From a virus: 64,000 bases of DNA. Both the position numbers and the translations under genes were made by a program. Position 1 is the first letter of the stretch. Every line of letters starts with the position of its first letter. This document shows, in pieces, positions 9,892 through 39,518 of the stretch. The notes below the pieces were generated by a model that saw only the letters and a program-made list of their open reading frames with translations, made no database searches and had not been told where the DNA came from. Location of the stretch: positions 1-64,000 of the IMG/VR virus record IMGVR_UViG_3300025585_000039; one strand, 5' to 3'.

Positions 9892-9897
9892 CTAACC

Positions 9898-9920
9898 ATT
9901 ATACCAAACTATGGTAGAAT
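9898..9920. promoter_or_regulatory. divergent extended -10 promoter pair
   Basis: On the minus strand TGG-TATAAT (complement of 9898-9903) lies 6 nt before the ATG at 9891. On the plus strand TGG-TAGAAT (9915-9920) lies 6 nt before the ATG at 9927. Neither has a good -35; the extended TGn elements replace it. Confidence 0.7.
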
Positions 9921-9926
9921 AGATAC

Positions 9927-10592: not shown

Positions 10593-10593
10593 G

Positions 10594-14009: not shown

Positions 14010-14711
14010 ATGGATCAACAACGACTAGAACAGGCTGCTCAAGGTTTTACAGTAGACCAACAAGGTAACAAGTATAGTTTTACATCCCCTATCCCTGGAG
14101 TTCATATTTATGATAATGTTTGGGAAAACTCTATGGACTTTTTCAATTCACTATTGGATAAGGAGTTTTGGGATAAGCATGAAGGTAATAAGAATTATAG
14201 AAAATGGGTTAGAGAAGATTTCTTTGACAATCAGGAATATACTAGAGAAAATGGAAAACAAGCAGACACTTGCTGGATACATACATACCCAGAAGCAAAT
14301 GATGCACTCAGAGGCGTTATTGATTCATACTGCTTTCATTGGAATCTAGATCCAAAGAGTCGTGAAAGTTTACGCATTACAAGATATTCAAATGGAGAAT
14401 GGTTTGGTGCACATTCTGATGATACATATGCAACACCAAGAACAATATCTTTAGTTTATTATCCAAACGATGACTACGAAGGTGGAGAATTAGAGTTTAT
14501 TCACTTTGGAGTAACAGTTAAACCAAAGGCTGGTCAACTATTTCTTTTCCCATCTGCTTATTCTTATGAGCATAAGATTCATGAAATCACTGGTGGAAAT
14601 CCAAGATGGACTGTTGTATCGTTCTTGTATTTTGGAGATGAAAAAGAAGCCAATATGAGACGAGAAGGCCTAGAATTTCCATACAAACCAATCTTTAAAT
14701 CATTGTTTTAA
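14010..14711 (+). CDS. prolyl-4-hydroxylase-like 2OG/Fe(II) oxygenase
   Basis: A 233-aa protein with HSD (in WFGAHSDDTYA, about residue 136), SLVYYPNDDYEGGELEF, KAGQLFLFPS, the distal His in YEHKIHE and the Arg in NPRWTVVSF. This is a complete 2OG oxygenase set. The TGA-TATAAT at 13983-13988 is followed by a leader with GAAAGG, so this gene is leadered. It stands alone between Hsp20 and a bidirectional terminator. Confidence 0.85.
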   Translation: MDQQRLEQAAQGFTVDQQGNKYSFTSPIPGVHIYDNVWENSMDFFNSLLDKEFWDKHEGNKNYRKWVREDFFDNQEYTRENGKQADTCWIHTYPEANDALRGVIDSYCFHWNLDPKSRESLRITRYSNGEWFGAHSDDTYATPRTISLVYYPNDDYEGGELEFIHFGVTVKPKAGQLFLFPSAYSYEHKIHEITGGNPRWTVVSFLYFGDEKEANMRREGLEFPYKPIFKSLF

Positions 14712-15201: not shown

Positions 15202-15281
15202 TAATAAATAAACTTTCTTGGCTTACGTATTTCTTTTTTAATTTTTCTAAATCTGTACCACTGAATTATTTTTTTAATCAT
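15201..15281 (-). CDS. 26-aa basic peptide
   Basis: A tiny frame, MIKKIIQWYRFRKIKKEIRK and six more residues, about half Lys or Arg. It is tightly coupled: ATGA with the SGNH gene and TAATG with the XapX gene. Similar basic mini-genes sit at 20676-20756 and 22517-22624. It may be a membrane-interacting peptide or merely a re-initiation bridge. Confidence 0.45.
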   Translation of the reverse strand: MIKKIIQWYRFRKIKKEIRKPRKFIY

Positions 15282-16195
15282 AACCAACCTCGTTTTTCTA
15301 TTTCTTTCTGGAACTTTGCAGCCCAGTATTCATTTACAAGAGTACCTGCGTGACCATCTCTTCTATTTAGATCAAACTTTTCAATCTTGCCATCTGGTCT
15401 TTTCTCTCTAATAAAGTCTAGCAACTCTTCATCTGATATGTCAATATAGTTTGAAGATAGATCTGCAAACTTATAGTTTACATTTTCTTGATAATCCCAT
15501 GAACCCCATAACAACTTAGTGCCCATTGACTCACAAAACTTTTCAAATAATTTCCAACTAATTGCAAAATCTATAAAGCATTTACGATGCTCAAGAAGTG
15601 TAAAAGGCTTTTCAATCAATAAGAAATCTGGAACCTTAGATTCATCTAGTTGGTCAGTGCTTACTCCGCCACCATTTGGGTATCTCTGTACATATACATA
15701 CTTTTCATTTTCTTGATCCCAGTCATAGAATCTACCTAAGTTTGGTAATAAAACAAACATATACTCTGGAGCACCATATTTTTCAATATAAATCATGTAT
15801 GTGGTTATAACCTTTTGCCATCCATATCCAGATTTGCCAATGCTATAAAAACCGTTATTAGTATTATTCTTCTTATTAAGATTATTTAATAAAACTTTTG
15901 TCCATACCGTTTCCTGTGGCGCACCAACACCTTCAGTTTGAGAACAACCAGCAAACAAAATATGCTTTTCATTTGAATGGTCTGCGGTAAAGTTATCACA
16001 TCTAAAAAAATCATCATTGTAGTTATAATCTACTGTGCCATCATCATCTGCAATCTCAATTGGAATTCTTGTCCAATGTCTTTGTGTAGTTAAAATACCG
16101 TTCATCTTACCCCAAGTCGCATCGAACTTGTTGTAAAATACGTCATCTATTCCACCATCAAGACTTCTTAAAACAAAAGGATCTGTCTTCTTCAC
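15278..16195 (-). CDS. SGNH-hydrolase-like protein, copy 1
   Basis: A 305-aa protein with block I as FAGCSQTEGVG (about residues 82-92; GCS replaces GDS, Ser kept), a mid-block Gly (GKSGYGW), an N-containing block (LLPNLGRFYD) and a C-terminal D-x-H (RRDGHAG, about 282). The paralogue at 38739 shares the same blocks. SGNH enzymes deacetylate or acylate glycans and lipids. Here it lies in the accessory operon with oxygenases. Confidence 0.65.
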   Translation of the reverse strand: MKKTDPFVLRSLDGGIDDVFYNKFDATWGKMNGILTTQRHWTRIPIEIADDDGTVDYNYNDDFFRCDNFTADHSNEKHILFAGCSQTEGVGAPQETVWTKVLLNNLNKKNNTNNGFYSIGKSGYGWQKVITTYMIYIEKYGAPEYMFVLLPNLGRFYDWDQENEKYVYVQRYPNGGGVSTDQLDESKVPDFLLIEKPFTLLEHRKCFIDFAISWKLFEKFCESMGTKLLWGSWDYQENVNYKFADLSSNYIDISDEELLDFIREKRPDGKIEKFDLNRRDGHAGTLVNEYWAAKFQKEIEKRGWL

Positions 16196-16704
16196 TCTAA
16201 TACCTCTCCTACTGGTTGGCTATATATAGTTAATGGTCGTTCATCAAAGTATGCAAGAAGAACACCAGTCTTATTATTGTTAATGTCGGGGTTTGTGTTT
16301 CTCCAATGCTCTAGTTTGCCTGAATTAAAAGCAACACCAGAGTTTGGTGGGAAAACATATTCTTTATCTTCTACCATGATTCCCCATGGCAAATTTTCAT
16401 ATAGACACACATCCAAAAGACATACAGTTGGATTTAAATCAACGTGCTTCCCAAGAACACCTTGATGTCCTTCGTAATGTGCAAATGTTGTTTTAGTAGA
16501 AGAAAGATTTGGATTGTCAAATAGTTCTCTTGCCAATGGTAAAAGTTCTTGTCCAAACATTTGTAGCACTGGATTATTGATACTATCAAACATAGTTCTT
16601 TGTTGTTTGTTTACACCAGAATGAGACAGTAGTCGTTTACAGTATGAAACAACTTCCTCAAACCTATCAAGTGTAAAAACACCATGTACTATTTTTGGAT
16701 CCAT
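16192..16704 (-). CDS. compact 2OG/Fe(II) oxygenase-like protein
   Basis: A 170-aa protein with HVD (GKHVDLNP, about residue 87), PWGIMVEDKEY, NSGVAF, and the distal HWRN followed by VLLAYF. The strand order matches the DYQL subfamily elsewhere in the window, in a shorter form. The leaderless start is TGA-TAGAAT (complement of 16711-16719), 6 nt, ATG. The stop makes an ATGA overlap with the SGNH gene. Confidence 0.65.
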   Translation of the reverse strand: MDPKIVHGVFTLDRFEEVVSYCKRLLSHSGVNKQQRTMFDSINNPVLQMFGQELLPLARELFDNPNLSSTKTTFAHYEGHQGVLGKHVDLNPTVCLLDVCLYENLPWGIMVEDKEYVFPPNSGVAFNSGKLEHWRNTNPDINNNKTGVLLAYFDERPLTIYSQPVGEVLE

Positions 16705-19819: not shown

Positions 19820-20479
19820 CTATAACCTATTCCCATGCCAATAATCCCAACCATGAAGATCTATGAATTCTTTTTGGAAGTTTTCTTGGTATGCGCTTTC
19901 TGTTAGTTTCTTTATTTCTTTTGTCATTCCATAATCATCTTGTTTTCCATCATGGAAATGAAAAAATATCATATCTACATATTCATCATCTTTTAATATT
20001 GTAGGCTTTCTCCAGTGTACCTCATACGATGGTTTAAAAACTAGTGCATCGTTATCTTCTAAAGAATACTCTTTATTTTCTACAACCAATTTCCACTCAA
20101 CATTAGATTCTAGTTGATAGTCAATAGTAAATGTAGAATGACCAGTGTCATAATGTGGTGCAAGTCGTGGAGTTCCATATTTAGGCGAGTATCTTGTAAA
20201 AGCATAACCATCTGGTTTTAGATCTTCACCATAATTATCTCTAGCATATTTTTCTATCTTATCGGCAATCCTTTTTGGAATTCTATCAGTAGCAACAAAC
20301 AGGGCACGTCCAGACCATTCCTGTGCTAAGACCTTATCTGTTGGTCTACCTTCTTTTGCAATAGTTTCAAGCGGTATGGTTACTGGCTCCATAGAATTAA
20401 AAAATCCATACATTGCTTCTTTGAGTTCTGCAATCTCATCATCTGTAAAGAATGCTTTAAGTTGATGGCTCTTTGTCAT
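19820..20479 (-). CDS. 2OG/Fe(II) oxygenase (DYQL subfamily)
   Basis: A 219-aa protein with HYD (APHYDTGHS, about residue 107), TIDYQLESNVEW, DNDALVF, the distal HWRKP and VDMIFFHF. It is closest by eye to the members at 42839 and 43915. Upstream it overlaps the DUF2061 gene by an ATGA junction. The substrate is unknown. Confidence 0.8.
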   Translation of the reverse strand: MTKSHQLKAFFTDDEIAELKEAMYGFFNSMEPVTIPLETIAKEGRPTDKVLAQEWSGRALFVATDRIPKRIADKIEKYARDNYGEDLKPDGYAFTRYSPKYGTPRLAPHYDTGHSTFTIDYQLESNVEWKLVVENKEYSLEDNDALVFKPSYEVHWRKPTILKDDEYVDMIFFHFHDGKQDDYGMTKEIKKLTESAYQENFQKEFIDLHGWDYWHGNRL

Positions 20480-20679: not shown

Positions 20680-20756
20680 GATGGCCACTCCATATCATTT
20701 GGTCTTGTGATAATATCCCAGATCTTCGATAAAACCTTTTTAAGTTTTGTAATCAT
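20676..20756 (-). CDS. 26-aa basic peptide
   Basis: A coupled mini-frame (MITKLKKVLSKIWDIITRPN and six more) with ATGA joins on both sides. The N-terminal half is an amphipathic, basic helix. It could be a membrane-active peptide or a translational bridge. Confidence 0.45.
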   Translation of the reverse strand: MITKLKKVLSKIWDIITRPNDMEWPS

Positions 20757-21310
20757 GAGATATACCTATTAGGAATAATGTCTACCAATAAATGAATGCG
20801 ATGCAACGGACTCTTGTTAACCACAGAGTGAATCTTAGCATTATTTATTTCCCAACATTCTCCTTCTTTCATTGTAACTGTTTTTTCATCTACAGTAAAA
20901 AAGACATTCTGATTTGTTATGATTGGTATATGGTGTCTGCGAGAATGCATAAGGTAGTCACCACTATCACTATGTGGATGAATGTCTCCAAATCCTTTTA
21001 GTTTAATTAGAAGGCATTGTCCAACTTTACCATCATGTAATATCTCTAAATCCCTTACAATTGGATCAACAAGACTCATAATGTTGTCATCAAAACATAA
21101 TTGTTGACCTTGGTATGGCGTATTAATACCCCACCCCAAAGGGTGAGTATATAAAAAAAATGACTCTGTAAATCTGTGTGTATATTCGCTGCGCTGCCTG
21201 CTTGTATTAATTTGCCATTCTGAATTAAATTTTTCAACAATAGACCGCAATTGAGAAACGTCAAATTGTTTGTGCATTGTTATGCTAAATTCTTCGTCCC
21301 TCTTGTACAT
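20753..21310 (-). CDS. aspartyl/asparaginyl beta-hydroxylase-like oxygenase
   Basis: A 185-aa protein. A cupin-type core is visible: HPHSD (about residue 118), HHIPIITNQNVFF, GECWEINNAKIHSV with the distal His, and HRIHLLVDI with the 2OG-binding Arg. The H..D..H..R order fits Fe(II)/2OG beta-hydroxylases of the AspH family, which hydroxylate Asp or Asn. It lies 1 nt downstream of the APS-kinase fusion. Confidence 0.75.
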   Translation of the reverse strand: MYKRDEEFSITMHKQFDVSQLRSIVEKFNSEWQINTSRQRSEYTHRFTESFFLYTHPLGWGINTPYQGQQLCFDDNIMSLVDPIVRDLEILHDGKVGQCLLIKLKGFGDIHPHSDSGDYLMHSRRHHIPIITNQNVFFTVDEKTVTMKEGECWEINNAKIHSVVNKSPLHRIHLLVDIIPNRYIS

Positions 21311-21311
21311 T

Positions 21312-22073
21312 TTAGATACCTAACTCTTTTCGCTTTTGTGTGGCACTAATGGATTCAATTTCATCACCAAGTTTAACTTGTTCTATTTTATATCCAACGT
21401 CACGACCATAAACAATATTAGTAATGTTAGGTAATCTAAGAACCATTGATCCATCCATAAATGAATCTTTAGCAATATAATCTTTTACTTCATCAAACTT
21501 TAATGGATCTTTTTCGCTTGTTTTATATGTATTACGCACTCCCAGAAGTACCTGATCAGTTCTCTTACCTGCTTCTACATATAGAGCGTGATGACCCTCA
21601 TGCCATGGTTGATATCGCCCAAGCATAAGTGTTGTTGGTGCAGACCAATCATGCAAGCCAAATTCTTTAATTATTACGGATGCTTTATCATCTGCATCAA
21701 GAATGTGGCTTGGAAACGAGATGTCATATTGAGTTGGCTCTTCAAACATTTTATTTGTATCTTCAAAACGACTTTCCTTGATTGTTCTCATCCAAATAAG
21801 AATATCTGGCTTACCAAATGCTGCACGAGTTAAATCTGTTGGGCATACAAAGTCAACAATAACTGGAGCAACACCTTGCTTTGAAATAAGACGTGCCATC
21901 TCTCCCATGCGTCGTGCCTGTTCTAAACGATCCTCTGGCGTAAAGCCAAGATCTGAATTCACTGTTGCACGAACCTCATCTGCATTAAGATGAATAGCGT
22001 TAATACGTTCTTTTAATGCCTTCGCAAGTTCTGTTTTGCCAGAACCTGGCAATCCAATTATTTGAATAATCAT
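21312..22073 (-). CDS. APS-kinase-like / nucleotidyltransferase fusion
   Basis: A 253-aa two-domain protein. Residues 1-140 resemble adenylylsulfate kinase: GLPGSGKT (7-14), LNADEVR (29-35), DLGFTPEDRLEQARRMGE (41-58) and VDFVCPT. Residues 145-253 are a HIGH-type nucleotidyltransferase: LGRYQPWHEGHHAL with HEGH at 158-161, and ISATQKR near 242. APS kinase makes PAPS, the donor for sulfotransferases encoded at 6498, 7147 and 10594. The second domain could be sulfurylase-like, making APS, but another nucleotide substrate is equally possible. It sits amid oxygenase and DUF2061 genes. Confidence 0.75.
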   Translation of the reverse strand: MIIQIIGLPGSGKTELAKALKERINAIHLNADEVRATVNSDLGFTPEDRLEQARRMGEMARLISKQGVAPVIVDFVCPTDLTRAAFGKPDILIWMRTIKESRFEDTNKMFEEPTQYDISFPSHILDADDKASVIIKEFGLHDWSAPTTLMLGRYQPWHEGHHALYVEAGKRTDQVLLGVRNTYKTSEKDPLKFDEVKDYIAKDSFMDGSMVLRLPNITNIVYGRDVGYKIEQVKLGDEIESISATQKRKELGI

Positions 22074-22624: not shown

Positions 22625-22824
22625 TATTTTACCTTATTCCCAAATTTTGTCCAAAGTCTTTCATGCACAAAGTACAAAGCAGATTCCCAAAATAATTCCG
22701 CCAGAGCAGCAATACCAGCAATTTCCCATTCTCCTGTTAAAAGAAAAATTGTTCCTGCAACCATTGTCATGTGAACCAGTTGCCAAGTAACTGTTTTAAG
22801 TAGACTCTTTTTTGGTGTATCCAT
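22624..22824 (-). CDS. DUF2061 membrane protein, copy 2
   Basis: A 66-aa protein with KKSLLKTVTWQLVHMTMV, a hydrophobic centre and ESALYFVHERLW, a second DUF2061 member diverged from that at 20476. It is coupled to the endolysin start by TAATG. It flanks the APS-kinase block on the other side from copy 1. Confidence 0.75.
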   Translation of the reverse strand: MDTPKKSLLKTVTWQLVHMTMVAGTIFLLTGEWEIAGIAALAELFWESALYFVHERLWTKFGNKVK

Positions 22825-23606
22825 TACTTTACTCCCTTAATTCTTCTGTATGTTTCTTCATCTACAATACCATTTACTGGAAGACCTTCTTTTTTCTGAA
22901 AAGCCCTTACCGCTTTATCGGTAATTGGTCCAAACACACCTTCTGCTGGCTTAACACCAAGTGCTACTTGAACAACCTTAACTGAAGATCCCTTCGATCC
23001 TTGCTTAAATGGTTTAAATAATTTTACTTCTGGAACTTCGACACCTTGTGATTTAGCAACTTCAGCAAGTGCAACCTTCTTGTCTTCTAAAGGCATTGGT
23101 GCATCTGCATCTGGATAATCAACTACTCCGTATCCTGCAATGAATACTTGAAGACCTTTCTTGTTAGGACCGTATGCACGAAGTTTCTTTGCACACTCAC
23201 CACCATTTGACTGACTACCCTTCTTTCCATCAGCGGATGTATTTCCTTCAATACACCAAGCAGTTCCATCACCATTATCTTTCAATACCCAACCAACATG
23301 GTCAATGTCACGACCACCAGGGAAGTCAAAATAAACTACCCAACCTGGCTGTGGTTTGTTACCTTTAACAGGAACCCACTTGTTCATCTTTTTAAATGCT
23401 GCTACACCAGCAGGTGTATAAACTGTATTTGGAACTTTTACACCAGCCTGATTAGCGGACCAGTTAACAAACGATCCACACCATGGCAAGAAATTTGCCT
23501 TTGTGTATGCACCATATTTTGTTTCATTATCTTTTGGACCTTCTACGGTTCCAACTTCTTTTTGAATCACTTCAAGTAGAAGTGCTCTTGTACCTTTTTC
23601 TGCCAT
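22824..23606 (-). CDS. endolysin: CHAP domain plus peptidoglycan-binding domain
   Basis: A 260-aa protein. The N-terminal CHAP-type amidase/endopeptidase has its catalytic Cys in FLPWCGSFVNW (C43) and His in DIDHVGW (about 103). Residues about 190-260 form a PG_binding_1 repeat (GSKGSSVKVVQVALG...GPITDKAVRAFQKK). It cleaves host peptidoglycan at lysis. A ribosome site (AGGAGG) precedes the ATG. No signal peptide is seen, so export would need a holin. Confidence 0.85.
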   Translation of the reverse strand: MAEKGTRALLLEVIQKEVGTVEGPKDNETKYGAYTKANFLPWCGSFVNWSANQAGVKVPNTVYTPAGVAAFKKMNKWVPVKGNKPQPGWVVYFDFPGGRDIDHVGWVLKDNGDGTAWCIEGNTSADGKKGSQSNGGECAKKLRAYGPNKKGLQVFIAGYGVVDYPDADAPMPLEDKKVALAEVAKSQGVEVPEVKLFKPFKQGSKGSSVKVVQVALGVKPAEGVFGPITDKAVRAFQKKEGLPVNGIVDEETYRRIKGVK

Positions 23607-23620
23607 TTTTCCTCCTAGTG

Positions 23621-25045
23621 TTACCTGATAATTTTTGTATTATAGGTCTTTTCCCACTCTATTATATCACTCTCATCATTTAGTAGTGGTTGGCCTTTAA
23701 TATTTAAACTGGTATTTAATAATATAGGAACACCAGTTGCCTTATAAAATTTTTCTAAAACAGCATACAATCCAGGATGCTGTTCTTTAGTTACTGTCTG
23801 AACCCTAGATGTGCCATCAATATGCACCACAGAAGGTATTAAATCTGGCTTTAAACATCTTGGGGTATATTGCATATATGGGGATTCATACTTCATGTCA
23901 AACCATTCTGAGGCGTGTTCTGCCATTATTACGGGGGCAAAAGGTCTAAACAATTCACGCTTCTTAATAAGATTTACCTTGTCTTTAATATTTGGATCTC
24001 TTGGATCAGCAAGGATACTTCTATTTCCTAATGCCCTTGGACCAAACTCTGCTCTACCGCTTGCTACTGCAGCAATTTGATTTGTCATAATCTCATTAAA
24101 GATAGCATCAACTGGATACTTTCCTGGAATATTATATCCAAGATATGGTCCTTCCCATTTTACATGTTTTGCACGAAGAGCAAGGGCAGCACCCAAAGAA
24201 CTACCAGCATCTCCAGGATTTGGCATGATCCAAACGTCATCAAAAATATCCCAAAGCATTGTATTGGCTGAAGCATTTAATGCACAACCACCCATAAAAA
24301 CCAAATTCTTATATTCTGGTAATAGTTCTCCTCGAACCATTATCATAAACTCCCACAATCTTTCTTCATACACCTTTTGAACTGAAGCAGCAATATCAAA
24401 CTTATCTTGATCAGTCAAGATGTGGTATGGCCAATCTTTAATTCCTTGATGGTAATTATATTTTTGTGTTTTAATATCAGGGAAGTAGGACCAAACCTCT
24501 TTGTAATATGTGTCTGGATTTCCATACCCTGCCATACCCATTAGAATATATTCTTCTTGATTTGGCATTAAACCTATCAGTTGTGTAAATGCAGAATAGA
24601 ATAAACCGAAACTTAATGGATATTTTATTTCTTTAACAAGTTTGATATCCTCTCCATCTCCTACCCAAACAGTAGACGTAGAAAATTCTCCAATAGCATC
24701 TAAAACAACAATTGCTGCTTTGTCAAATGGACTTGTATAATATCCTGCACAAGCATGGGTGTAGTGATGCTTAAATGATATATCAAACTTATGTTTTGGC
24801 TTCCAATCTGCAGCACCACCACGTAAAACCAATCTTAACTTTTTAAGTCCAGGCTTTTCATAGTATGCAATTTCATCTGGAGTTCCTCCGTATCGCTCTG
24901 CATCTTTCCATAACTCATTATTGGTATACCAATCATTTTTAATCTTGCTATATCTTTCTGCGTGTCCAGCAAATAAAATAGAACTATTTTTAATTACAGC
25001 AAGTGCAGCATCGTGAGATGTCTCATTGAATCCAAATATTTTCAT
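23621..25045 (-). CDS. NodU/TobZ-type carbamoyltransferase
   Basis: A 474-aa protein with Kae1-like ATPase features at the N-terminus (FNETSHDAALAVI; KHHYTHACAGYY with the metal-binding His pair; VVLDAIGEFSTST) and the C-terminal carbamoyltransferase domain (GRAEFGPRALGNRSILADPR; LLNTSLNIKGQP). The family transfers carbamoyl from carbamoyl phosphate to hydroxyls of sugars or antibiotics via carbamoyl-AMP. It is somewhat short (typical about 550 aa) but has both ends. It is adjacent to two P4H-like genes and a glycosyltransferase, so carbamoylation of a sugar or hydroxyl made by those enzymes is plausible. Confidence 0.85.
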   Translation of the reverse strand: MKIFGFNETSHDAALAVIKNSSILFAGHAERYSKIKNDWYTNNELWKDAERYGGTPDEIAYYEKPGLKKLRLVLRGGAADWKPKHKFDISFKHHYTHACAGYYTSPFDKAAIVVLDAIGEFSTSTVWVGDGEDIKLVKEIKYPLSFGLFYSAFTQLIGLMPNQEEYILMGMAGYGNPDTYYKEVWSYFPDIKTQKYNYHQGIKDWPYHILTDQDKFDIAASVQKVYEERLWEFMIMVRGELLPEYKNLVFMGGCALNASANTMLWDIFDDVWIMPNPGDAGSSLGAALALRAKHVKWEGPYLGYNIPGKYPVDAIFNEIMTNQIAAVASGRAEFGPRALGNRSILADPRDPNIKDKVNLIKKRELFRPFAPVIMAEHASEWFDMKYESPYMQYTPRCLKPDLIPSVVHIDGTSRVQTVTKEQHPGLYAVLEKFYKATGVPILLNTSLNIKGQPLLNDESDIIEWEKTYNTKIIR

Positions 25046-25710
25046 TATTCTTGTCCAGTGGAATCTCTTTTAGCAGAAAGGGGAACATTGTGATACCAAT
25101 TTGGTAACGCATATCTTGGACCTTTTGTAACTGGATGAACTTCATGAACATACAAAAAGTTAGATGGGAAGAACAAAACGCTTCCTGGATCTGGTTTAAT
25201 TACAAGGTCTGAATGTCTAAACTCTATCTCTCCGCCCTCATAGTCATCATTGAGATAAAGCAATACAGATAAAACTCTTGTACTAATTCCTTGATCTTGA
25301 TGAGCAGGAAGGTGTCCAGTTTTTTCATACTTCAATAAATGCATTGTATGTTCTCTAGACTTAATGTTCTTTTCTGCAAATGGATATAAGTCTTTTGTAT
25401 AGTGATCAAGCGTTATATCTAATGCACCAAATAGTTCTGAAGAAATAAACTTTTGTTCTTCACCATATATATCATTTGCTGGAATGTCTTTGACTTGTGG
25501 AATAAACTTCTGCATGTTAAACGTCAGCATGCTTTCACCCTCGCCATATGTCCAAGGAACCCATGGCTTTACGGATGTTTGATTTGGTCCAGGCTTATCA
25601 GTAAGCCATCTATTCTCAAGTTCTTCAACAGCATCAATAATCTTTTGTGGTTCTTTAATTACATTTGTATAATAAACTAAACCAAGATCTAAAACTTCAT
25701 AATCAAACAT
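25045..25710 (-). CDS. prolyl-4-hydroxylase-like 2OG/Fe(II) oxygenase
   Basis: A 221-aa protein with HQD (PAHQDQGIS, about residue 136), LSVLLYLNDDYEGGEIEF, PGSVLFFPS, the distal His in YVHEVHPV, and GPRYALP. All ligands are present. The ATG at 25710 overlaps the previous stop region by 8 nt; a longer frame from 25779 overlaps the neighbour heavily and was rejected. It is paired with a second, related oxygenase upstream. Confidence 0.85.
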   Translation of the reverse strand: MFDYEVLDLGLVYYTNVIKEPQKIIDAVEELENRWLTDKPGPNQTSVKPWVPWTYGEGESMLTFNMQKFIPQVKDIPANDIYGEEQKFISSELFGALDITLDHYTKDLYPFAEKNIKSREHTMHLLKYEKTGHLPAHQDQGISTRVLSVLLYLNDDYEGGEIEFRHSDLVIKPDPGSVLFFPSNFLYVHEVHPVTKGPRYALPNWYHNVPLSAKRDSTGQE

Positions 25711-26353
25711 GGTTAAGTCCATATTCTCTTGCAAGCCACTTTGGTCTTTGGCCTGGGAATAGGAACTCTGGATCTGCATTTTGTGGCAAACTAGTATGCA
25801 TATACAGTGCCGTATATCTATTGCCCTTAGTTACCGTTGTAATACCATGTACATATTCTGTTCCAGCACTTGGGAAAAATACCGCCGAATATTTCTTAGG
25901 AGCATAAACAACATTTTGGTTTGGAAAATAAATTCTTCCACCTTCAAAATCATCGTTAAGATACATAACGGTACTCCACTCAATCCATGGTTCTGGGCCT
26001 TGTGCATCAATGTGTAGGTCTCCCTTTTTACCTTCTGCCCACCAAGATCCAAACCCTTTGAATACATATATATCATGCATATACCCATTGAGTCTTCTGT
26101 GGTCTTCGTTTGCTTTCTGTCCATACTTAACAAGTACTTCCATAACTTGCTTGTTATAAGGAAGAGAAGTTCCTCCAAATCTTTTCTTATAATAATCTGG
26201 ATAATCATTAACCTCAGAAGGATTTTGCATTTCTCTAACTAAGAGATCTGCATCTTCTGGTGTAATGTAATTTTCTATAACATGAATTCTATGGCCATAG
26301 GTTTCTGGTCCGTGTGCCTCTAAATAGTTTTCTGGATTTGCTACTTCGATCAT
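25703..26353 (-). CDS. prolyl-4-hydroxylase-like 2OG/Fe(II) oxygenase
   Basis: A 216-aa protein with HID (DLHIDAQGP, about residue 117), STVMYLNDDFEGGRIYFP, SAVFFPS, EYVHGI and GNRYTALY. The start ATG 26353 has AGAGGAGA upstream, and a TGG-TATAAT promoter lies just 5' of that, inside the end of the glycosyltransferase gap. The internal promoter lets this pair be expressed apart from the upstream genes. Confidence 0.85.
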   Translation of the reverse strand: MIEVANPENYLEAHGPETYGHRIHVIENYITPEDADLLVREMQNPSEVNDYPDYYKKRFGGTSLPYNKQVMEVLVKYGQKANEDHRRLNGYMHDIYVFKGFGSWWAEGKKGDLHIDAQGPEPWIEWSTVMYLNDDFEGGRIYFPNQNVVYAPKKYSAVFFPSAGTEYVHGITTVTKGNRYTALYMHTSLPQNADPEFLFPGQRPKWLAREYGLNHV

Positions 26354-26378
26354 TTTTTCTCCTCTTATTATTATACCA

Positions 26379-27248
26379 CTAGTGAACTGCTTTGGTGGTA
26401 GCAGTATATCTTCTAGCATCAATTTGATTAAAATTTAATTTTTCTGGATCATATTGAACATCATTAGTTTCAAATGGTAGTGGTTCTAAACTTTTGAAAT
26501 CAAAGTTGTGTCTTGTGCAGAAATCATCTACCGTTAAGTCCCTGCCAAGAATTGATCCACAGCAATTAATACCAGTCCTTAGCATTGTGATTGCTTCATT
26601 GTAATTATGATTTATTGAAAATGGTACGTACAGTGTTTCCATAGTTGGCTTACCAGCAAGAGTATAAAAATCTGTGGGCATTGCAAAAACTGGAATACCC
26701 CTTGTAAATAAATCTAGGGATAGGACTTCTTCCACACCATTATATTTTATATAACTTGGATAGTTAAGATTAGACATTGTTTTCTTATCACCAAATATTA
26801 GATCCCTATCAATAAAATCTGTTTGAACAATTTCAGAAGTTTCAATTTTTTCTTTTTGTATATAGAATACATTCTTTGCGGATATAGCAACTTGGTGATT
26901 ACCAGAAATTATCTGATTTGGCTTACACGCCTCAATTAGTTTTACATCCCAATCCTTAGACAACATAACATTGTCCGACAACAACATAAAATATTTTGAT
27001 TTGGACCACATTGCATTTGATGCTCTTAGGGCTGAATGATTTGTAATCCAATCCCAGAATAGGTGCTTATATCCAACACCCATTTTTTCAAAGGTATCTT
27101 TTCTATCTAGTGGATGTTGATCATATATACCTATACCAATTGAATGTTTCTTACTTGAATTATCTATAATCTGTTGAATAACATCTTTAAGATGTTTACC
27201 CTTATAAGAATAAATAAAAATATTTATGTCTACATTATTCATCGTCAT
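26379..27248 (-). CDS. GT60-like glycosyltransferase (GlcNAc-transferase family fold)
   Basis: A 289-aa protein with a GT-A layout resembling PF11397/GT60 (Skp1 hydroxyproline GlcNAc-transferase family): HSALRASNAMW (71-81), the D-x-x-x-x-L-x-x-DWD region (SDNVMLSKDWD, 91-101), a late EEVLSLDLFTRGIPVFAMP (173-191), and a GRDLTVDDF segment near the C-terminus. The DSH/DxD-type metal motif reads SDN. In eukaryotes this family glycosylates hydroxyproline. Here it is directly upstream of two P4H-like genes. The assignment is by motif order, without a search. Confidence 0.6.
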   Translation of the reverse strand: MTMNNVDINIFIYSYKGKHLKDVIQQIIDNSSKKHSIGIGIYDQHPLDRKDTFEKMGVGYKHLFWDWITNHSALRASNAMWSKSKYFMLLSDNVMLSKDWDVKLIEACKPNQIISGNHQVAISAKNVFYIQKEKIETSEIVQTDFIDRDLIFGDKKTMSNLNYPSYIKYNGVEEVLSLDLFTRGIPVFAMPTDFYTLAGKPTMETLYVPFSINHNYNEAITMLRTGINCCGSILGRDLTVDDFCTRHNFDFKSLEPLPFETNDVQYDPEKLNFNQIDARRYTATTKAVH

Positions 27249-28005
27249 GCTTGACTTCTTTCATCAATGCATTTTTGATACCATAAATCTTACGTCTCCA
27301 AGCAGTTTCTTTATAATAACCATATAGTCTGGATCTTCGATTCTCTGCCATAAACTCATGTCTTTCTAAATCTGAATCTTTTTCTGCTAATTCCATTTCC
27401 CAGTTTTCTCGTTTAAATGGTATCATTTGAAATATTGGTGTTCCCTTTGGAATTGTTCCAATGAAATTTTTCTTTAAAAAGAATGCGGTAAATACTGGTA
27501 GTCCCCAAATATCAGCCTCAACAACGCCAGACATTGTATAGAATGGAAGGTCGTGTCTATTCATTGGGTGGGTAATAAGAACAGAGTATCCAGGTGGTGT
27601 TTCATAATACCAGTTCATTCTCCATCCGTAATGGATTGGATGACACCCATCTGGCACTGGTAATTCAATCGTTGGTCTTTTATCAACCATCATTACTTCA
27701 CCATTCCAAGACACAATTGGCTTACCGTGCTTGGTTTGATCTACGTGAACATCATCTTCTAGGACATAGTGATATCCACCAGTCATGGCATCAAAGAATG
27801 GCATACACATTTTAGTAGCAACCATTGCTCCGTCTGCACCAATATTATTTTTTACACCAAGAGTAATATCATCATTTGACTTATCAAACTTTGCAAGACT
27901 TCTGTACCATTCAGGCACATTCTTTACCGCTGGCTCTGGTGGCGTAAGTCTATGCTCATAACCAGTAAAGGCTGGTGTAAATTTAATAATGTTAGGATCT
28001 GTCAC
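27235..28005 (-). CDS. paralogous phage protein of unknown function, copy 1
   Basis: A 256-aa protein. Shared blocks with the neighbour at 28002 are PEPAVKNVPEWYRS, KMCMPFFDAMTGGY, GYSVLITHPMNRHDLPF, IPKGTPIFQMIPFKRE and WEMEL. The fold looks all-beta and cupin-like, but no catalytic motif is clear. It might belong to DUF6065 (uncertain). It lies in the same operon as the glycosyltransferase and may be a modification enzyme or structural accessory. Confidence 0.6.
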   Translation of the reverse strand: MTDPNIIKFTPAFTGYEHRLTPPEPAVKNVPEWYRSLAKFDKSNDDITLGVKNNIGADGAMVATKMCMPFFDAMTGGYHYVLEDDVHVDQTKHGKPIVSWNGEVMMVDKRPTIELPVPDGCHPIHYGWRMNWYYETPPGYSVLITHPMNRHDLPFYTMSGVVEADIWGLPVFTAFFLKKNFIGTIPKGTPIFQMIPFKRENWEMELAEKDSDLERHEFMAENRRSRLYGYYKETAWRRKIYGIKNALMKEVKHDDE

Positions 28006-28724
28006 TTAAATTCTTTCTTTGCTCTATATTTATTTTTATAAGAGTGAACAAAATTACTTCTAAGTTTAAATCTTTGTTTTGTTAATTCTGCTGATGATTC
28101 AGAAGTTGGAACTAACTCCATCTTCCAATCTTCACGTTTAAATGGGATGACTTGAACAAGAGGTGTTCCTTGTTTAATTACACCCTTAAAATCTTTTTCA
28201 ATAAGAATAGATAGGTGACCATCTGTAATAAACTTATCTGTGTCAATGAATCCCTGTATTGCTAAGAAAGGTAAGTGATCTTTGTGCAAGGGATGCATGA
28301 AAAGTGTGCTATAACCTTCTGGTGTTTTAACTGCCCAGAATGGCATAACTCTAAACAATTGTTTGTGATACTTATTAGTATCGATTGGATAATGATCGTA
28401 TTGTTCTGGAGCATGTACAGCAAACATATCATTAACAAATTGCTTCATCGTCAACGGAACTGAGAACTCAATCTTTGCTGGGTTTGTTGCATCAATATAA
28501 ACATCGCATGGAAACGGAATGACATACCCTGCTGTCATAGCATCAAAAATTGGCATACAACGTTTAATAGTTGATGATAATTCTCCCTTTGGAAGGAACT
28601 CGTCATCCCTTACAGATGCTGGCTGTCTCTTATACCAGTCTGGTGTATTTTTGATTGCTGGTGTTGGTTCTGGTGCGAAAAATGTTGTTCTTTCGCTAAA
28701 CGGATAAAACCGAATGATGTTCAT
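28002..28724 (-). CDS. paralogous phage protein of unknown function, copy 2
   Basis: A 240-aa paralogue of the product of 27235: PEPTPAIKNTPDWYKR, KRCMPIFDAMTAGY, GYSTLFMHPLHKDHLPF, IKQGTPLVQVIPFKRE and WKMEL. It is joined to copy 1 by an ATGA overlap. The duplicated conserved Cys in K-x-C-M-P and the paired His/Pro loop are likely functional. Confidence 0.65.
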   Translation of the reverse strand: MNIIRFYPFSERTTFFAPEPTPAIKNTPDWYKRQPASVRDDEFLPKGELSSTIKRCMPIFDAMTAGYVIPFPCDVYIDATNPAKIEFSVPLTMKQFVNDMFAVHAPEQYDHYPIDTNKYHKQLFRVMPFWAVKTPEGYSTLFMHPLHKDHLPFLAIQGFIDTDKFITDGHLSILIEKDFKGVIKQGTPLVQVIPFKREDWKMELVPTSESSAELTKQRFKLRSNFVHSYKNKYRAKKEFK

Positions 28725-29385
28725 AGAACTCCTTTACTCTATTAACAATTATATCATCTGCCTCAAAAACCATATCAAACATTGGCTGTTGTCTTTTAAT
28801 TTTGCCAAAATTCTCATTGATCATATGGGGTCCAACTTTTTTAAAGGCAAATGTAACAAATGCTGGCTCAATATATTTTTCATCGCCAGTGGTTTTTGTA
28901 TAACTATATTCTGTTGGATTAATATAGAATGGTGAGGCAGCGTCTGGTTTTTCAAACCTCACATTGATGTTTTCATCTATAAACCACGGAACATAAAACT
29001 TATAAAAAGAATTAAAACAATCATCTGTCAAATCAAAGGTTTCTTTGGTTTGATAGTATTGCCTTATCCATGGACGATCTAAATTAAAAAATGCCCTAGT
29101 GTGTTGTCTTACTAGCAAAAAGAATTCAGCATGATTTCCCTGCCTAAGTCTAACTGTATTGTTTTCAATCGATACAAGTTTTGGTGCTGGGTATAAATTC
29201 CTTACATAGTTGTTGATTGGCTTGATTATTGAGTCTTTATATTCACTCTGCATGACTTTAGAATATGTAATCCAATTTATATTTACCCTGGATTTTTCAC
29301 TAATATCAGAAAAAACTGGGTCCCATGTTTCTTGCCAAATATGAAAATTATATTTTTGATCTGTTAGGATTTCTGGTCCTTGCAT
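28696..29385 (-). CDS. hypothetical protein, possible distant relative of the preceding pair
   Basis: A 229-aa protein with no clear motif. The C-terminal GKIKRQQPMFDMVFEADDI and the preceding Y-I-x-PAFVTFAF sit where the pair has its IPKGTPIFQMIPF block, so it may be a remote relative. TGG-TATAAT (complement of 29407-29415) gives a short leader with GAAAGG, so the start is ATG 29385, not the ATG at 29421 upstream of the promoter. Confidence 0.55.
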   Translation of the reverse strand: MQGPEILTDQKYNFHIWQETWDPVFSDISEKSRVNINWITYSKVMQSEYKDSIIKPINNYVRNLYPAPKLVSIENNTVRLRQGNHAEFFLLVRQHTRAFFNLDRPWIRQYYQTKETFDLTDDCFNSFYKFYVPWFIDENINVRFEKPDAASPFYINPTEYSYTKTTGDEKYIEPAFVTFAFKKVGPHMINENFGKIKRQQPMFDMVFEADDIIVNRVKEFYEHHSVLSV

Positions 29386-29428
29386 TACAAAACCTTTCGA
29401 CAACTCATTATACCAACACATTCATCAG

Positions 29429-30919: not shown

Positions 30920-32566
30920 CTACTTACCGTTCCACTTGTCAAGTTCTTTTTTGAGCATATCTAGCCCCATAGGACCTAATTTCAATGCGTACATATGCCA
31001 TTTTTTGAGATTAAAATTGTCACCTAATTTAGTTTTTGATTTTTCTCTGGCTTCGAGCCAAATACGCTCACCAAGTTTATAGGTGATTGCTTGTCCTGCC
31101 CAAGAAATATATCTTTTAACTTCATTAACAGCATAGTCATGTGTTAATAATGCTTGCTCTTCCATAAATTTTACAGCCAAGTCTGGTGTCCATGTTTCAC
31201 CATATGGACTTTCATATTCTAAGTGCAACCCAATATCAACAACTAACCTTGCTGCTCTCATTGCTTGGCAAAGTAAGTATCCCATTTTATATCCAGGATC
31301 TTCAAAATAGCCAAGTTCATCCATTAGTGTTTCTGCATATAAAGCCCATCCTTCACCATACCCAGAATTCCAAGCATCTTCTCTTTGATATCTTGTCAGT
31401 GTTTCTTTGTTGTATGTTGCAGTTGCAATTTGCATATGATGGCCAGGCACTGACTCATGGAACCATGTCGAATAATTTTCCCATGTTGTAAACTTTGTAC
31501 GTCCCAATGTTGGATAATATGTTCTTCCTGGTCTCTCTAAATCATCTGAAGGTCCTTTGTAATATGGAGATTCATCAATAGTATCTTCATCCATGATCAC
31601 TTCACATTTACGAATAACAGCAGGAATTGTAAAATACTCACCACTTAGATCCGCAATTGCTTGCTTAGTTATTTTATCTAAAAACTTTTTAAAATTATCT
31701 TTGCCCTCGATGGTGTAGTCTGGACTATTATTTAAAAAATTTGCAACCTCTGTCAAGGACTTGGCATCTGGTTTAATTTTTTTGGCAACATCCCACATCT
31801 GCTTATGAATATTTTCTAAATCTTTGAAGCCAGAAGCATATACCTTTTTAGGATTAATCATTAAACCAGTTTGAGACTTTACTAGTTTTATGTATCTTTC
31901 TTCACCCACAGCAAACTTATCTAAACAGGTAGGAAGGTATTTAAGTTCTAACCAAGTAGAGACTTGCTCACATGCGATCTGCGCTTCCTTTGCAGCCTTT
32001 AAAAGTCTTTTGTCAGCATCATCAATATCTTTGGCAATTTTAACAAACAAACCTTCTGCATAATTATTTAAAATATCAATCAAATATTCAACACGTAACT
32101 TAATTCCAGGCTGACCCAATGCTGATACGTCTTTCAGTGATGAGACCCATTGTGTAAGTGCCGTTGGAATTTTTTCCATACGCTTAATAATATTTAAAAC
32201 ATCTTTCCTTGTTTCTTTAGGCATGACCTCAAAAACTTCAAACATGGATTGTGGCTCTGAAAAAACTGAGCCGAAGTTTACATAGTTCCAATTGTCATCA
32301 GCATCTTCTATGTAATCATTAATATCAAACAAGATAACCTTTTTTGCAATCTCATCATAGCGATCAATTGGCTCTACCTCGCTGATTTGTTTGTAATATT
32401 TTTTTGCTATCTTTAAAAATGGGTCTACCTCATGGTAGGCATAGTCGTTCCAGTCTGAATTTTGGTCTGTATCATTGGCAAAGGTTGAAGCGATAGCATC
32501 ATATTCTAAAGACTTAAGGCTATATTCTTCAGACAGCCTAAAAATTTCTGATCGATGCCTTGCCAT
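30920..32566 (-). CDS. DUF885-family zinc metallopeptidase
   Basis: A 548-aa protein, typical for DUF885. The zinc-binding HESVPGHH motif is at about residue 370, followed by the conserved GEGWALYAE about 40 residues later (glutamate ligand), and by AMRAARLVVDIGLH. The family are cytoplasmic or secreted carboxypeptidase/dipeptidase-like enzymes, rare in phages. No signal peptide is seen, so it probably acts inside the cell. The ribosome site AGAGGATAAA decides the start at 32566. A strong dedicated promoter is at 32620-32648. Confidence 0.85.
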   Translation of the reverse strand: MARHRSEIFRLSEEYSLKSLEYDAIASTFANDTDQNSDWNDYAYHEVDPFLKIAKKYYKQISEVEPIDRYDEIAKKVILFDINDYIEDADDNWNYVNFGSVFSEPQSMFEVFEVMPKETRKDVLNIIKRMEKIPTALTQWVSSLKDVSALGQPGIKLRVEYLIDILNNYAEGLFVKIAKDIDDADKRLLKAAKEAQIACEQVSTWLELKYLPTCLDKFAVGEERYIKLVKSQTGLMINPKKVYASGFKDLENIHKQMWDVAKKIKPDAKSLTEVANFLNNSPDYTIEGKDNFKKFLDKITKQAIADLSGEYFTIPAVIRKCEVIMDEDTIDESPYYKGPSDDLERPGRTYYPTLGRTKFTTWENYSTWFHESVPGHHMQIATATYNKETLTRYQREDAWNSGYGEGWALYAETLMDELGYFEDPGYKMGYLLCQAMRAARLVVDIGLHLEYESPYGETWTPDLAVKFMEEQALLTHDYAVNEVKRYISWAGQAITYKLGERIWLEAREKSKTKLGDNFNLKKWHMYALKLGPMGLDMLKKELDKWNGK

Positions 32567-32619
32567 TTTATCCTCTTTAGGTAGTAGTAAACCCCCCATT
32601 AAGGATGGGGCATACATAT

Positions 32620-33178: not shown

Positions 33179-35212
33179 TTACCTCCTCATACCAATAATC
33201 GTACTTGCAATTTGAGATACAATGACTACTGGGATTATTACCTCTTGTGCTTTTTCTCTCTGATCGTCTGTCATATCCATACCTAACTCAGAGAAATTAG
33301 ATAGGAGTTCTAGTGGGTCTACATTAAATAATGCACCAAGTGGATCTTCTAAAAATGCTTCTGCTTGTACCTCTGTAACAGCGTCTGCCAATGTAAATGG
33401 CATTGGGGTATCTCCAGCATCACTTGCTCTTGCTGAAAACTCAACAAATGCTTCTGCAAGTGCTGGATTAGATTTCATTTGATTTGCAATTTGTCCAATT
33501 TCTGATGTTTTAATACCAAGATCTTTTGCAACCTCAGCCTTTGCCTCTTGAGTTAAGGTTTGCAGTGTTTGGCTAACTGCTGCTATTTGTTCGGCAGAAA
33601 GTTTAACTAATTTATTATCTTTGCTTGTAAGGTTTGCAATAACTCCAGATAAATCTTCTGTTGTTCCAGTACCCTTTTCTGGAATAAGTGCTGCCAATTC
33701 TTCATCTTTTATTTCAGGATTAGTGGTTGGTTCGGTAGTTGGCTCTACTGTTGGTTCTGGGCCAGGTGTAGGCTCTGGAGTTGGATCTATTATAGGCTCT
33801 GTTGTAGGTTCTACCGTTGGCTCTGGAGTTGGCTCTGGGGTAGGATCAATTGTTGGTTCTGGATCTGGGGTAACTTCAGGTGTAGGTTCTGGGGTAGGTT
33901 CTGGAGAAACTTCTGGAGTAGGTTCAGGTGTTGGATCTACGATAATTGTTGGTTCTGGAGTAGGCTGATTTGCTGCTGCATTGGCTGCTGCTTGTGCAAT
34001 TGCAATTTGAATTTCTCTTTCTTTTTGTTTATTATAATATTCCCATGCATCTTCTATAGCATTATTCATATCTATTATTGCTTGATTGTAATTATCATTA
34101 GCAGTATTCTTATTAGATAATGCATTTTCTGTATTTGTAACAGAAGTATTATATGCTGTTATTTTTTCCTGTAAAGTTTGATTATATGTTGTTAGTGTAG
34201 AATTGGCACTATTATATGCAGTAACTTTATTATTATAATTTGTTTGTGCTGTTGCTTGATCTTCTACTGCTTGATTATATGCATTAGTCTGTGCCTGTGT
34301 TGGTCCAGAACCAGAAGAAAAAGTATTTAAATTGCAACTAAAACCTACACCCCAACCACCAGTATAGTCACATCCTGCTCCAGTCCATCCTCCAGGAATA
34401 GCCCATCCAAGATAATAAGATCCTGGACCACCACCGTTATACCACCAAATTTCTACATCTAATGTTTTATTTTGGCTAACATCATATACTGGTGAATAAG
34501 CACTCCATCTTGCTCCCTGTTCTACCCAGTTATCAATTGCTAATTGACCATTGACATACATTTTAAAACCATCGTCTGTATACCCTGCAAAATAAGTTGA
34601 AGTCCAATGAGATGGAACTGTAATCTTTCCAGTAAACTTAACTACTATATTTTCATATCTATTACCACAGACTGGCAGGTACATAGAATTTGAATTCCAG
34701 GTACCAGAACAAATAACAGAATCTGGTACTGCTATGCTTGGCCAAACCCTAGCAAGGTTATAAACTGTGTATTGAAGTCCTTGACCACTAGCAGATTGCA
34801 TATTTGCTTGGGTTGTTTGAACATTAATGTTTGCTAGATCTAGGGTATCTTGAGCAGCATTCTTTGCAGATAGTGCTGTTGCTACCGTTGAAGTTTGACC
34901 ATCAACTGCAGATTGTGCCAAAGTCTTTTCTTCAAGTGCAACCGCTTGAGCATTTACTGCATCTTCATAGGCTTGGTTTGCTGCATCTCTTGAGTCTCGT
35001 GCTGATACGGCAGCATCATATTTATTTTCTGCTATATCTATTAGGTTTACAAAATCAGTCTGATAGTTTAAGTCATCAACGCTGTTATTAAGTTTTGTTA
35101 TTTCTTGTGCAGCAACTGATATAGGGTCGTCTGAATTAGCGTCTGTAGGGGCTATTAAAAGCCATCCAAAGGCTAATATGGTGGCTGTTGCTATGCGTAT
35201 TAATCGTTTTAT
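33179..35212 (-). CDS. secreted surface protein: coiled coil, PA14-like domain, Pro/Thr/Glu repeats
   Basis: A 677-aa frame when started at ATA 35212: AGGGGG sits 7 nt upstream, and the product begins MKRLIRIATATILAFGWLLI, a perfect Sec signal. No ATG, GTG or TTG is available there, and the first internal alternative (TTG 34921) would drop the signal. In order it has helical coiled-coil segments, a PA14-like domain (about 140-290, with GYTDDGFKMYVNGQLAIDNW), a second helical region, about 85 residues of PTPEP/PEPTPE repeats, and a C-terminal hydrophobic stretch. It probably resides on the cell or virion surface. The Pro/Thr tract is a candidate substrate for the encoded hydroxylases and glycosyltransferase. 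Confidence 0.75.
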   Translation of the reverse strand: MKRLIRIATATILAFGWLLIAPTDANSDDPISVAAQEITKLNNSVDDLNYQTDFVNLIDIAENKYDAAVSARDSRDAANQAYEDAVNAQAVALEEKTLAQSAVDGQTSTVATALSAKNAAQDTLDLANINVQTTQANMQSASGQGLQYTVYNLARVWPSIAVPDSVICSGTWNSNSMYLPVCGNRYENIVVKFTGKITVPSHWTSTYFAGYTDDGFKMYVNGQLAIDNWVEQGARWSAYSPVYDVSQNKTLDVEIWWYNGGGPGSYYLGWAIPGGWTGAGCDYTGGWGVGFSCNLNTFSSGSGPTQAQTNAYNQAVEDQATAQTNYNNKVTAYNSANSTLTTYNQTLQEKITAYNTSVTNTENALSNKNTANDNYNQAIIDMNNAIEDAWEYYNKQKEREIQIAIAQAAANAAANQPTPEPTIIVDPTPEPTPEVSPEPTPEPTPEVTPDPEPTIDPTPEPTPEPTVEPTTEPIIDPTPEPTPGPEPTVEPTTEPTTNPEIKDEELAALIPEKGTGTTEDLSGVIANLTSKDNKLVKLSAEQIAAVSQTLQTLTQEAKAEVAKDLGIKTSEIGQIANQMKSNPALAEAFVEFSARASDAGDTPMPFTLADAVTEVQAEAFLEDPLGALFNVDPLELLSNFSELGMDMTDDQREKAQEVIIPVVIVSQIASTIIGMRR

Positions 35213-38219: not shown

Positions 38220-38742
38220 TAACCACCGTAATCACTTCATTTTCTTTTGCAATAGCAGATAACCTACGCATAATATCATCACGAACCTCTGGATACTCAG
38301 ATGCAATATCTTTTAGAATTCCAACAAGGATTTCCTGTCGTCTTTCAATCTCAACCATTTCTTCTGCAAGTTCCTTATTTTCAAGTAGTCCTGCTTTTTG
38401 TAGCATATCAATACGCTTAGATTCGATATCCATAACAAGTTTAATGGCTGCGGTTTTTGCTCCAAGATTATTAGTCATAGACGCTTCATCAATAACTTCA
38501 TATGATTTTGTTATCAATTTACTATAATGTGCATCAGCACCTACCAATGCTTCTTTTGCTCTTGCTCTGATGACAGCATTATCAGAAGCCATTTGCTTCC
38601 ATTCATCAATGTACGCAACTACCCGTGTGCGTGGAATAGCCAAGTCTTTAGAAATTTGTGTTGGATCATTTCCCTTTAGGTACTCAGAAACTACATCATT
38701 GACTTGATCTAAATGCTTGACCAGATCTTCTTCTGCTGTCAC
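38206..38742 (-). CDS. putative terminase small subunit
   Basis: A 178-aa protein with a helix-turn-helix (PTQISKDLAIPRTRVVAYIDEW, about 27-48) and a long helical region, placed directly before terL. Size and position fit a DNA-recognition small terminase. Confidence 0.7.
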   Translation of the reverse strand: MTAEEDLVKHLDQVNDVVSEYLKGNDPTQISKDLAIPRTRVVAYIDEWKQMASDNAVIRARAKEALVGADAHYSKLITKSYEVIDEASMTNNLGAKTAAIKLVMDIESKRIDMLQKAGLLENKELAEEMVEIERRQEILVGILKDIASEYPEVRDDIMRRLSAIAKENEVITVVNGVQ

Positions 38743-39518
38743 TTTGAACTCTTTTCCATATATCTATTATACATTATTTCGGCCCATACCGTGTGGTATC
38801 CATTTCCATAATGATGGCCATCTCTAGCATTCATTGCATATTCATCATCTGGATTTTCTATTACATATTTGGCAACCATGTCATCGTCTAGAATATTGAC
38901 ATAACAGTTTAAATCTTGATAATGATTAAAATTAGAACGAGGTGCCCATGTGCCATAAATTAAATTAATATTATTTGACTTACAATATCTTTCTAGCATA
39001 AAAATATATTGATATTCTATTAATGGAATCGTATGCCAGAGTTCTTCTGAGATTTCTTCTGGCTCATGAATATTAACATAAATATGTTTTTGTATTGTTG
39101 TATCAAATGAAAGGAATCTTCTTGATACTGGGAAATTAATAAAGATTACATTTGGTTTGCCAAATGATTCAATATATTTATAAATATTAAAAACAATAGC
39201 AAGAATGCCTAATCCAGGTGCACCTATATTAAAAAATCCAGAAGTATTTTCTTTGTGATGAATTTTGTCATAAAGTCTTTTTGCCCAAATCTCATGCTCT
39301 TCTAAACCATCCCCAAAAGTATTAGAGCATCCAGCAAACAAAATATGAAGTCCAGCATGCTCTGTAGTAAAATCATCTGACCTATATTTATGTTTATTTA
39401 ATCTAATTTTGGGATCATGTAGATATGGGTGTGCCTGTATTTTGGGAAAGTCTTTCTTGAAGGGGAAGGCTATTACTCTGTAGACAGAACCACTATCGGT
39501 ATCAAAAATATCAGGCAT
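38739..39518 (-). CDS. SGNH-hydrolase-like protein, copy 2
   Basis: A 259-aa protein, paralogous to 15278-16195: FAGCSNTFGDGLEE (block I, about 57), NIGAPGLGI, NFPVSRRFLSFD and RDGHHYGNGYH at the C-terminus. The catalytic Ser and the C-terminal D-x-H are kept. It sits between terminase and DNA metabolism genes and is coupled at both ends, which is unusual for a glycan enzyme. Confidence 0.65.
   Translation of the reverse strand: MPDIFDTDSGSVYRVIAFPFKKDFPKIQAHPYLHDPKIRLNKHKYRSDDFTTEHAGLHILFAGCSNTFGDGLEEHEIWAKRLYDKIHHKENTSGFFNIGAPGLGILAIVFNIYKYIESFGKPNVIFINFPVSRRFLSFDTTIQKHIYVNIHEPEEISEELWHTIPLIEYQYIFMLERYCKSNNINLIYGTWAPRSNFNHYQDLNCYVNILDDDMVAKYVIENPDDEYAMNARDGHHYGNGYHTVWAEIMYNRYMEKSSK

Follow-up and report, generated by a model that had tools for sequence, protein, structure and literature searches.

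What does a phage do with a glycosyltransferase gene placed directly beside two genes for oxygenases that resemble prolyl 4-hydroxylases (P4H)? The question is raised by a locus of IMG/VR virus record IMGVR_UViG_3300025585_000039, which is 80,003 bases long and within which lies the window analyzed here (the whole stretch of 64,000 nucleotides from position 1). Since the record carries a WhiB gene (PF02467) and phage tail genes, the virus is suggested to be a tailed phage of an actinobacterium. The genes of interest code for a glycosyltransferase (GT), two P4H-like 2-oxoglutarate (2OG)/Fe(II) oxygenases (P4Ha and P4Hb) and a carbamoyltransferase (CT). The best guess, which is possible but tentative, is that they form part of an operon for post-translational modification in which a phage protein would be hydroxylated and then glycosylated.

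These four genes are real, being intact open reading frames (ORFs) of the minus strand at the positions given in an earlier note on this DNA. That note placed the cassette at 23621-27248; its genes stand and its extent does not, the unit beginning at 29421 with three genes that are conserved directly upstream of GT and were absent from the first description. The unit opens with X (28696-29421, 241 aa), which has no family match, followed by DUFb (28002-28724, 240 aa; phrog_7084/DUF6065-like) and DUFa (27235-28005, 256 aa; DUF6065-like with a predicted dUTPase/dCTP deaminase-like beta fold). Next come GT (26379-27248, 289 aa), a GT-A-fold glycosyltransferase distantly related to PF11397 and PF00535, P4Ha (25703-26353, 216 aa), P4Hb (25045-25710, about 221 aa) and CT (23621-25045, 474 aa), an O-carbamoyltransferase of NodU/TobZ type, all seven genes lying on the minus strand. 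The two oxygenase genes were re-started: the ORFs as listed span 25703-26422 and 25045-25779, and the preferable starts are the ATG at 26353, which has a Shine-Dalgarno-like AGAGGAG upstream, and the ATG at 25710, respectively. Neighboring frames overlap or nearly touch from X to CT, as in one operon. A gene for a lysin with CHAP and peptidoglycan-binding domains (22824-23606, minus strand; PF05257, PF01471) is found ~15 nt downstream of CT, a position that suggests late expression.

The gene order is maintained in related phages. Their loci were collected by scans based on CT (35 loci), P4Ha (the best 80 of 574) and GT (80 loci). Since contigs recur between scans, some loci do not represent independent phages, and the GTs were therefore clustered at 50% identity. 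P4Ha is the next gene after GT in 74/76 loci of the GT scan and lies next to GT in 34/36 clusters, while a DUF gene is positioned at most 900 nt upstream of GT in 75/77 loci. Among the best 80 of 574 P4Ha loci, GT is directly upstream in 69/76 and the gene that follows is P4Hb in 61/75 and CT in 7/75. The co-occurrence of GT and oxygenase in relatives, part of a check on all four genes proposed in the earlier note, is thus strong and their pairing is far above chance. The conserved unit is X-DUFb-DUFa-GT-P4Ha, usually followed by P4Hb. The two exceptions to GT-P4Ha adjacency (L191 and L179) have GT flanked by genes with HDH motifs instead of P4Ha, whose products are, by eye, likely other Fe-dependent oxygenases and have no Pfam match. 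A further family featuring HDHxxG...HGYYCVxAEPS...GHPHG motifs, likely Fe-dependent oxygenases and likewise without Pfam match, adjoins GT at L061:1721-2410, L191:2665-3989 and L179:2060-2722. Pairwise distances of the components are correlated (r 0.80 for GT-DUF, 0.65 for GT-P4Ha and 0.61 for P4Ha-DUF, with 0/500 permutations as high), a result to be expected as well from shared phage ancestry alone. A terminase-based control set consisted mostly of short contigs.

Both oxygenases match PF13640 above its cut-off (P4Hb 7e-18, P4Ha 2.4e-7) and the HxD...H...R signature, formed by the iron triad and the basic 2OG residue, is invariant in the alignments of the two families, in agreement with their first description as complete P4H-like enzymes encoded directly downstream of GT. 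Profile comparison with PDB sequences relates P4Ha to prolyl 3-hydroxylase 1 (P3H1; 3.5e-7), Bacillus anthracis P4H (1.8e-4) and the P4H 5c5t (0.006), and P4Hb to B. anthracis P4H (2.6e-7), P3H1 (3.5e-7), PHD2 (3e-4) and a Tet-like enzyme (0.18). The solved structures nearest to both proteins in these sequence comparisons are therefore prolyl hydroxylases, which does not prove their substrate. That many 2OG proteins of phages are structurally similar to prolyl hydroxylases was already noted (PMC12774648). A short-motif search of 84,980 species genomes found no cellular relatives of P4Ha or of DUFa, a result that does not by itself show their absence.

The GT was first attributed to the GT60/PF11397 family. 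A distant relation is maintained, while formal membership is not established because the match has a score of 18.5 bits (E 0.0015, residues 9-47 only) for a curated cut-off of 21 bits. PF11397 is matched by 21/38 GT relatives (best E 1.6e-8) and GT2 by 9/38, some relatives matching GT2 only; 4/10 scanned relatives match PF11397 at 16.6-19.5 bits, all under the cut-off, and the PF11397 matches that were inspected are short and below it. The AlphaFold2 model (12-sequence alignment; pLDDT 81.7, pTM 0.81) matches GT-A enzymes and not an unrelated fold, upholding the assignment as a glycosyltransferase. Its best solved fold is that of the polypeptide GalNAc-transferases (GT27; Z 19.7, root-mean-square deviation (rmsd) 3.2 over 243 residues, 12% identity), from which the phage protein differs by having no lectin domain and no conserved DXD-type motif. 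The next solved matches are cellulose synthase, chondroitin synthase and the GT domain of LH3 (Z 14-16; LH3 Z 15), and Foldseek also identifies mimivirus R699 and TarP. Among viral models the best match is an uncharacterized phage protein (35% identity) followed by a phage protein annotated "Glycosyltransferase, GlcNAc" (TM ~0.7). The GT profile gave only a chance-level match to PDB sequences, and tblastn of GT against 50,697 named phage records yielded zero matches. Of the three proteins compared (GT, DUF and P4Ha), GT has diverged much the most (mean identity 36% versus 68% and 63% for the other two), a pattern compatible with adaptation of this component to acceptors or donors that vary. 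Transfer of N-acetylglucosamine (GlcNAc) to hydroxyproline is, at most, a prediction for this enzyme.

The presence of prolyl-hydroxylase-type oxygenases in a fixed position beside a GT similar to peptide O-glycosyltransferases suggests hydroxylation followed by glycosylation of a protein. P4Ha and P4Hb would add hydroxyls, most likely to proline or to another residue of a phage protein, and GT would then attach a sugar to the hydroxyl, its fold being closest to enzymes that glycosylate Ser/Thr of peptides. X, DUFb and DUFa, of which at least one has a predicted dUTPase-like fold, may assemble into an oligomer whose role would be to bind a nucleotide or a nucleotide-sugar or to present the substrate. 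CT, where present, would probably cap a hydroxyl of the sugar or of the residue in the same product. CT is a genuine carbamoyltransferase, as claimed, holding both NodU/TobZ domains (PF16861 9.5e-54, PF02543 1.1e-40; phrog_1601 1.2e-101). The proposal of a fixed four-gene series for hydroxylation, glycosylation and carbamoylation is not retained, because CT is often found without GT and P4Ha, and GT-P4Ha often without an adjacent CT. In the CT scan the X/DUF block is nearby in 18/35 loci, where GT and P4Ha are nearly always present if the contig is long enough; other loci have SGNH-like genes beside CT and no X/DUF block. Note that the window codes for SGNH-hydrolase-like proteins, identified by eye and without Pfam match, at 15278-16195 and 38739-39518; their relatives are often encoded beside CT where the GT block is lacking.

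DUFb and DUFa, encoded upstream of GT, match phrog_7084 (9.6e-49 and 7.4e-33, respectively). The similarity of DUFa to DUF6065 (PF19541) amounts to 18.4 bits, under the curated cut-off of 26.6 bits, and 23/47 DUFa relatives match this family at E up to 1 (best 1.8e-6). The model of DUFa (47-sequence alignment; pLDDT 80, pTM 0.75) has its best matches in trimeric dUTPase and dCTP deaminase (Foldseek 2.4e-4; VIA Z 9.4, rmsd 2.9), over 126 of 256 residues. The stretches GYxY, the invariant Ser141 and IVDxDIWG...KGTPIxQ resemble dUTPase motifs by eye only, with an invariant Ser and Asp at resembling positions. DUFa differs from dUTPases by its larger size and by the occurrence of two tandem paralogues, perhaps three; moreover, its sequence matches none of the Pfam dUTPase families and the DUF profile matches no PDB sequence. 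X has no family match in Pfam or PHROG searches and a weak profile similarity to DUFa/DUFb (hhalign E 0.0021, probability 13%), which is only suggestive of a third protein with the DUF6065 fold. Literature searches on DUF6065 yielded no description of this operon.

The candidate target encoded in the window is a PA14-domain protein with (PTPEP)n repeats (33179-34921, minus strand; PF07691 8.7e-7), the sole convincing Pro-rich protein of the record, whose frame is open to ~35260 and includes a signal-like amino terminus. It was rejected as a universal target, similarity being found in 13/25 relatives only, partial in some of them. Relatives also encode collagen-like (PF01391) and PT-rich proteins. 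Collagen-like proteins were rejected as a marker that would discriminate the target, and no target is singled out, since they occur with GT and also in relatives without a close GT (G020, G026, G027, G030).

The occurrence of collagen-like proteins in those relatives is one of several observations that weigh against protein hydroxylation and glycosylation. The presumed 2OG position of both oxygenases is occupied in the alignment by Arg, whereas collagen-type P4Hs carry Lys. P4H-type enzymes make up most solved structures of the 2OG oxygenase superfamily, so that a P4H as nearest structure tells little on the substrate. The DXD-type motif of GT varies, being SDD/SDN in most members and TPG, NGA or DGA elsewhere, and is followed by a W-D pair that is invariant in the family alignment. 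CT is a frequent but separable, optional neighbor. The predicted dUTPase-like fold of DUFa is not explained by simple protein glycosylation and is the main unexplained element. The P4H of PBCV-1 hydroxylates Pro peptides, yet no hydroxyproline was detected in the virions (PMC7019647).

An unlikely alternative is that the enzymes decorate a glycan or the cell envelope, tailoring a sugar polymer, a lipid-linked glycan or a small metabolite of the host or virion. Sugars and antibiotics are the substrates of NodU/TobZ carbamoyltransferases, and the genome also codes for a sulfotransferase, an APS-kinase-domain protein and methyltransferases. In addition, the P4Ha-P4Hb-CT core has a second context, unnoticed at first, in which it follows methyltransferase and oxygenase (sometimes sulfotransferase-like) genes rather than GT. 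Such an alternative upstream module is found in 7/76 loci of the P4Ha scan (L041, L043, L059, L062, L074, L089 and L091 of the best 80 of 574), which have upstream a Methyltransf_24 gene homologous to window 11285-11962; several of them also carry homologues of the 2OG gene at 9927 and of the sulfotransferase-like gene at 10594. In the window these genes belong to a second modification-type cluster (9142-11962) that codes for a methyltransferase (9142-9891, minus strand) and, on the plus strand, for a 2OG oxygenase (9927-10592), a sulfotransferase-like protein (10594-11292) and a methyltransferase (11285-11962), and homologues of this cluster sit directly upstream of P4Ha-P4Hb-CT in some relatives. 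Against glycan decoration, the fold of GT and its relation to PF11397 indicate protein acceptors, although the acceptor cannot be deduced from the fold alone, oxygenases of prolyl-hydroxylase type are known to act usually on peptides, and no nucleotide-sugar pathway genes were recognized among the genes searched.

Hypermodification of DNA or nucleotides is improbable and stays alive because of the dUTPase/dCTP deaminase-like fold of DUFa. An oxygenase would hydroxylate a base methyl group, as in base J/TET-like systems, GT would glycosylate it, CT would carbamoylate it and the dUTPase-fold proteins would handle the nucleotide. P4Hb has weak similarity to the TET/JBP family (PF12851; 19.6 bits, E 5.6e-4, under the required 34.9 bits), as has the protein encoded at 9927, but both oxygenase profiles favor prolyl hydroxylases well over Tet-like enzymes and the GT fold is closest to peptide transferases. 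A phage-type carbamoyltransferase with the same Pfam pair as CT (PF02543 and PF16861) is proven to act on 5-hydroxymethylcytosine (eLife 70021, PMC8670742); its gene, however, adjoins a thymidylate synthase homologue, with which it co-occurs, and neither thymidylate synthase nor cytosine-C5 methylase was found in this record or among 24 relatives, of which 23 measure 70-125 kb. The cytosine hydroxymethylation route was rejected on this basis, while hydroxylation of thymine is possible and requires neither enzyme. The least probable alternative is that linked genes have separate jobs, e.g., oxygenases in redox/2OG metabolism or DNA repair and GT for a tail protein, for which speak the ~eleven 2OG-oxygenase-like proteins recognized by motif in the record, five of which reach the Pfam cut-off, and the abundant cyanophage 2OG genes with several proposed roles (PMC3037559), and which is countered by the fixed X-DUF-DUF-GT-P4Ha order in dozens of divergent phages, the overlapping frames and the correlated divergence.

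Modification of a phage protein by hydroxylation and glycosylation would have one of its closest likenesses in mimivirus L230/R699 and human LH3, in which proteins are modified jointly by a 2OG hydroxylase and a GT-A glycosyltransferase. Of the solved structures, those of LH3 and R699 rank among the better matches to the GT model. The differences are that L230 and LH3 are known to hydroxylate lysine and to have hydroxylase and GT in one polypeptide, whereas the phage genes are separate, their oxygenases are prolyl-hydroxylase-like and DUF6065-type partners are added. Modification of collagen by a viral hydroxylase and GT is known for mimivirus (PMC9546862, PMC11838735). The pathway of the Skp1 hydroxyproline GlcNAc-transferase in Dictyostelium and Toxoplasma similarly combines a P4H-type hydroxylase with a PF11397-type GT; it differs in having, to our knowledge, no carbamoyltransferase or dUTPase-fold partner, and the GT of this record is below the PF11397 cut-off. 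The P4Hs of chlorovirus PBCV-1 and B. anthracis are microbial or viral prolyl hydroxylases and belong to the relatives of known structure of P4Ha and P4Hb. They are known to have Lys at the presumed 2OG position, unlike the phage oxygenases with Arg, and we know of no operon in which they are associated with a GT.

The 2OG-oxygenase-like proteins are encoded at 2053-2613, 9927-10592, 14010-14711, 16192-16704, 19820-20479, 20753-21310, 25045-26353, 42070-42909, 42839-43447 and 43915-44451; beyond the five above the Pfam cut-off (one Asp_Arg_Hydrox), two weakly match phrog_2954 (annotated ferrochelatase) and the others were identified by eye. A sulfotransferase (PF00685), two more sulfotransferase-like proteins identified by eye and the APS-kinase-domain protein, which has an HxGH nucleotidyltransferase-like second half and is >80% identical in some relatives, are encoded at 6498-7154, 7126-7704, 10594-11292 and 21312-22073; sulfation by the phage is possible. 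A DUF885 protein (30920-32617; 2e-116) is encoded between a tRNA cluster and the PA14 protein gene. The phage also codes for a cobalamin adenosyltransferase (5.7e-52) and a luciferase-like protein (below cut-off), at 1418-1987 and 2618-3439.

Animals, protists and giant viruses are known to couple the hydroxylation of proteins with their glycosylation. In the limited open-access literature, no publication was found that reports such a system as an operon of phages, nor did papers on phage hydroxyproline or glycosylation systems describe this operon. In its widest form the proposal, which is doubtful, is that tailed phages carry a dedicated operon that hydroxylates and then O-glycosylates their own structural proteins, with optional carbamoylation and the assistance of a repurposed dUTPase-fold oligomer, a system that would be analogous to collagen or Skp1 modification and has no known counterpart. 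The gene order is kept across dozens of divergent environmental phages and therefore defines a concrete set of enzymes open to expression and target identification. Phages encode very many "2OG-Fe(II) oxygenases" of uncertain role; such an operon would give a first functional context to some of these and to DUF6065-like proteins.

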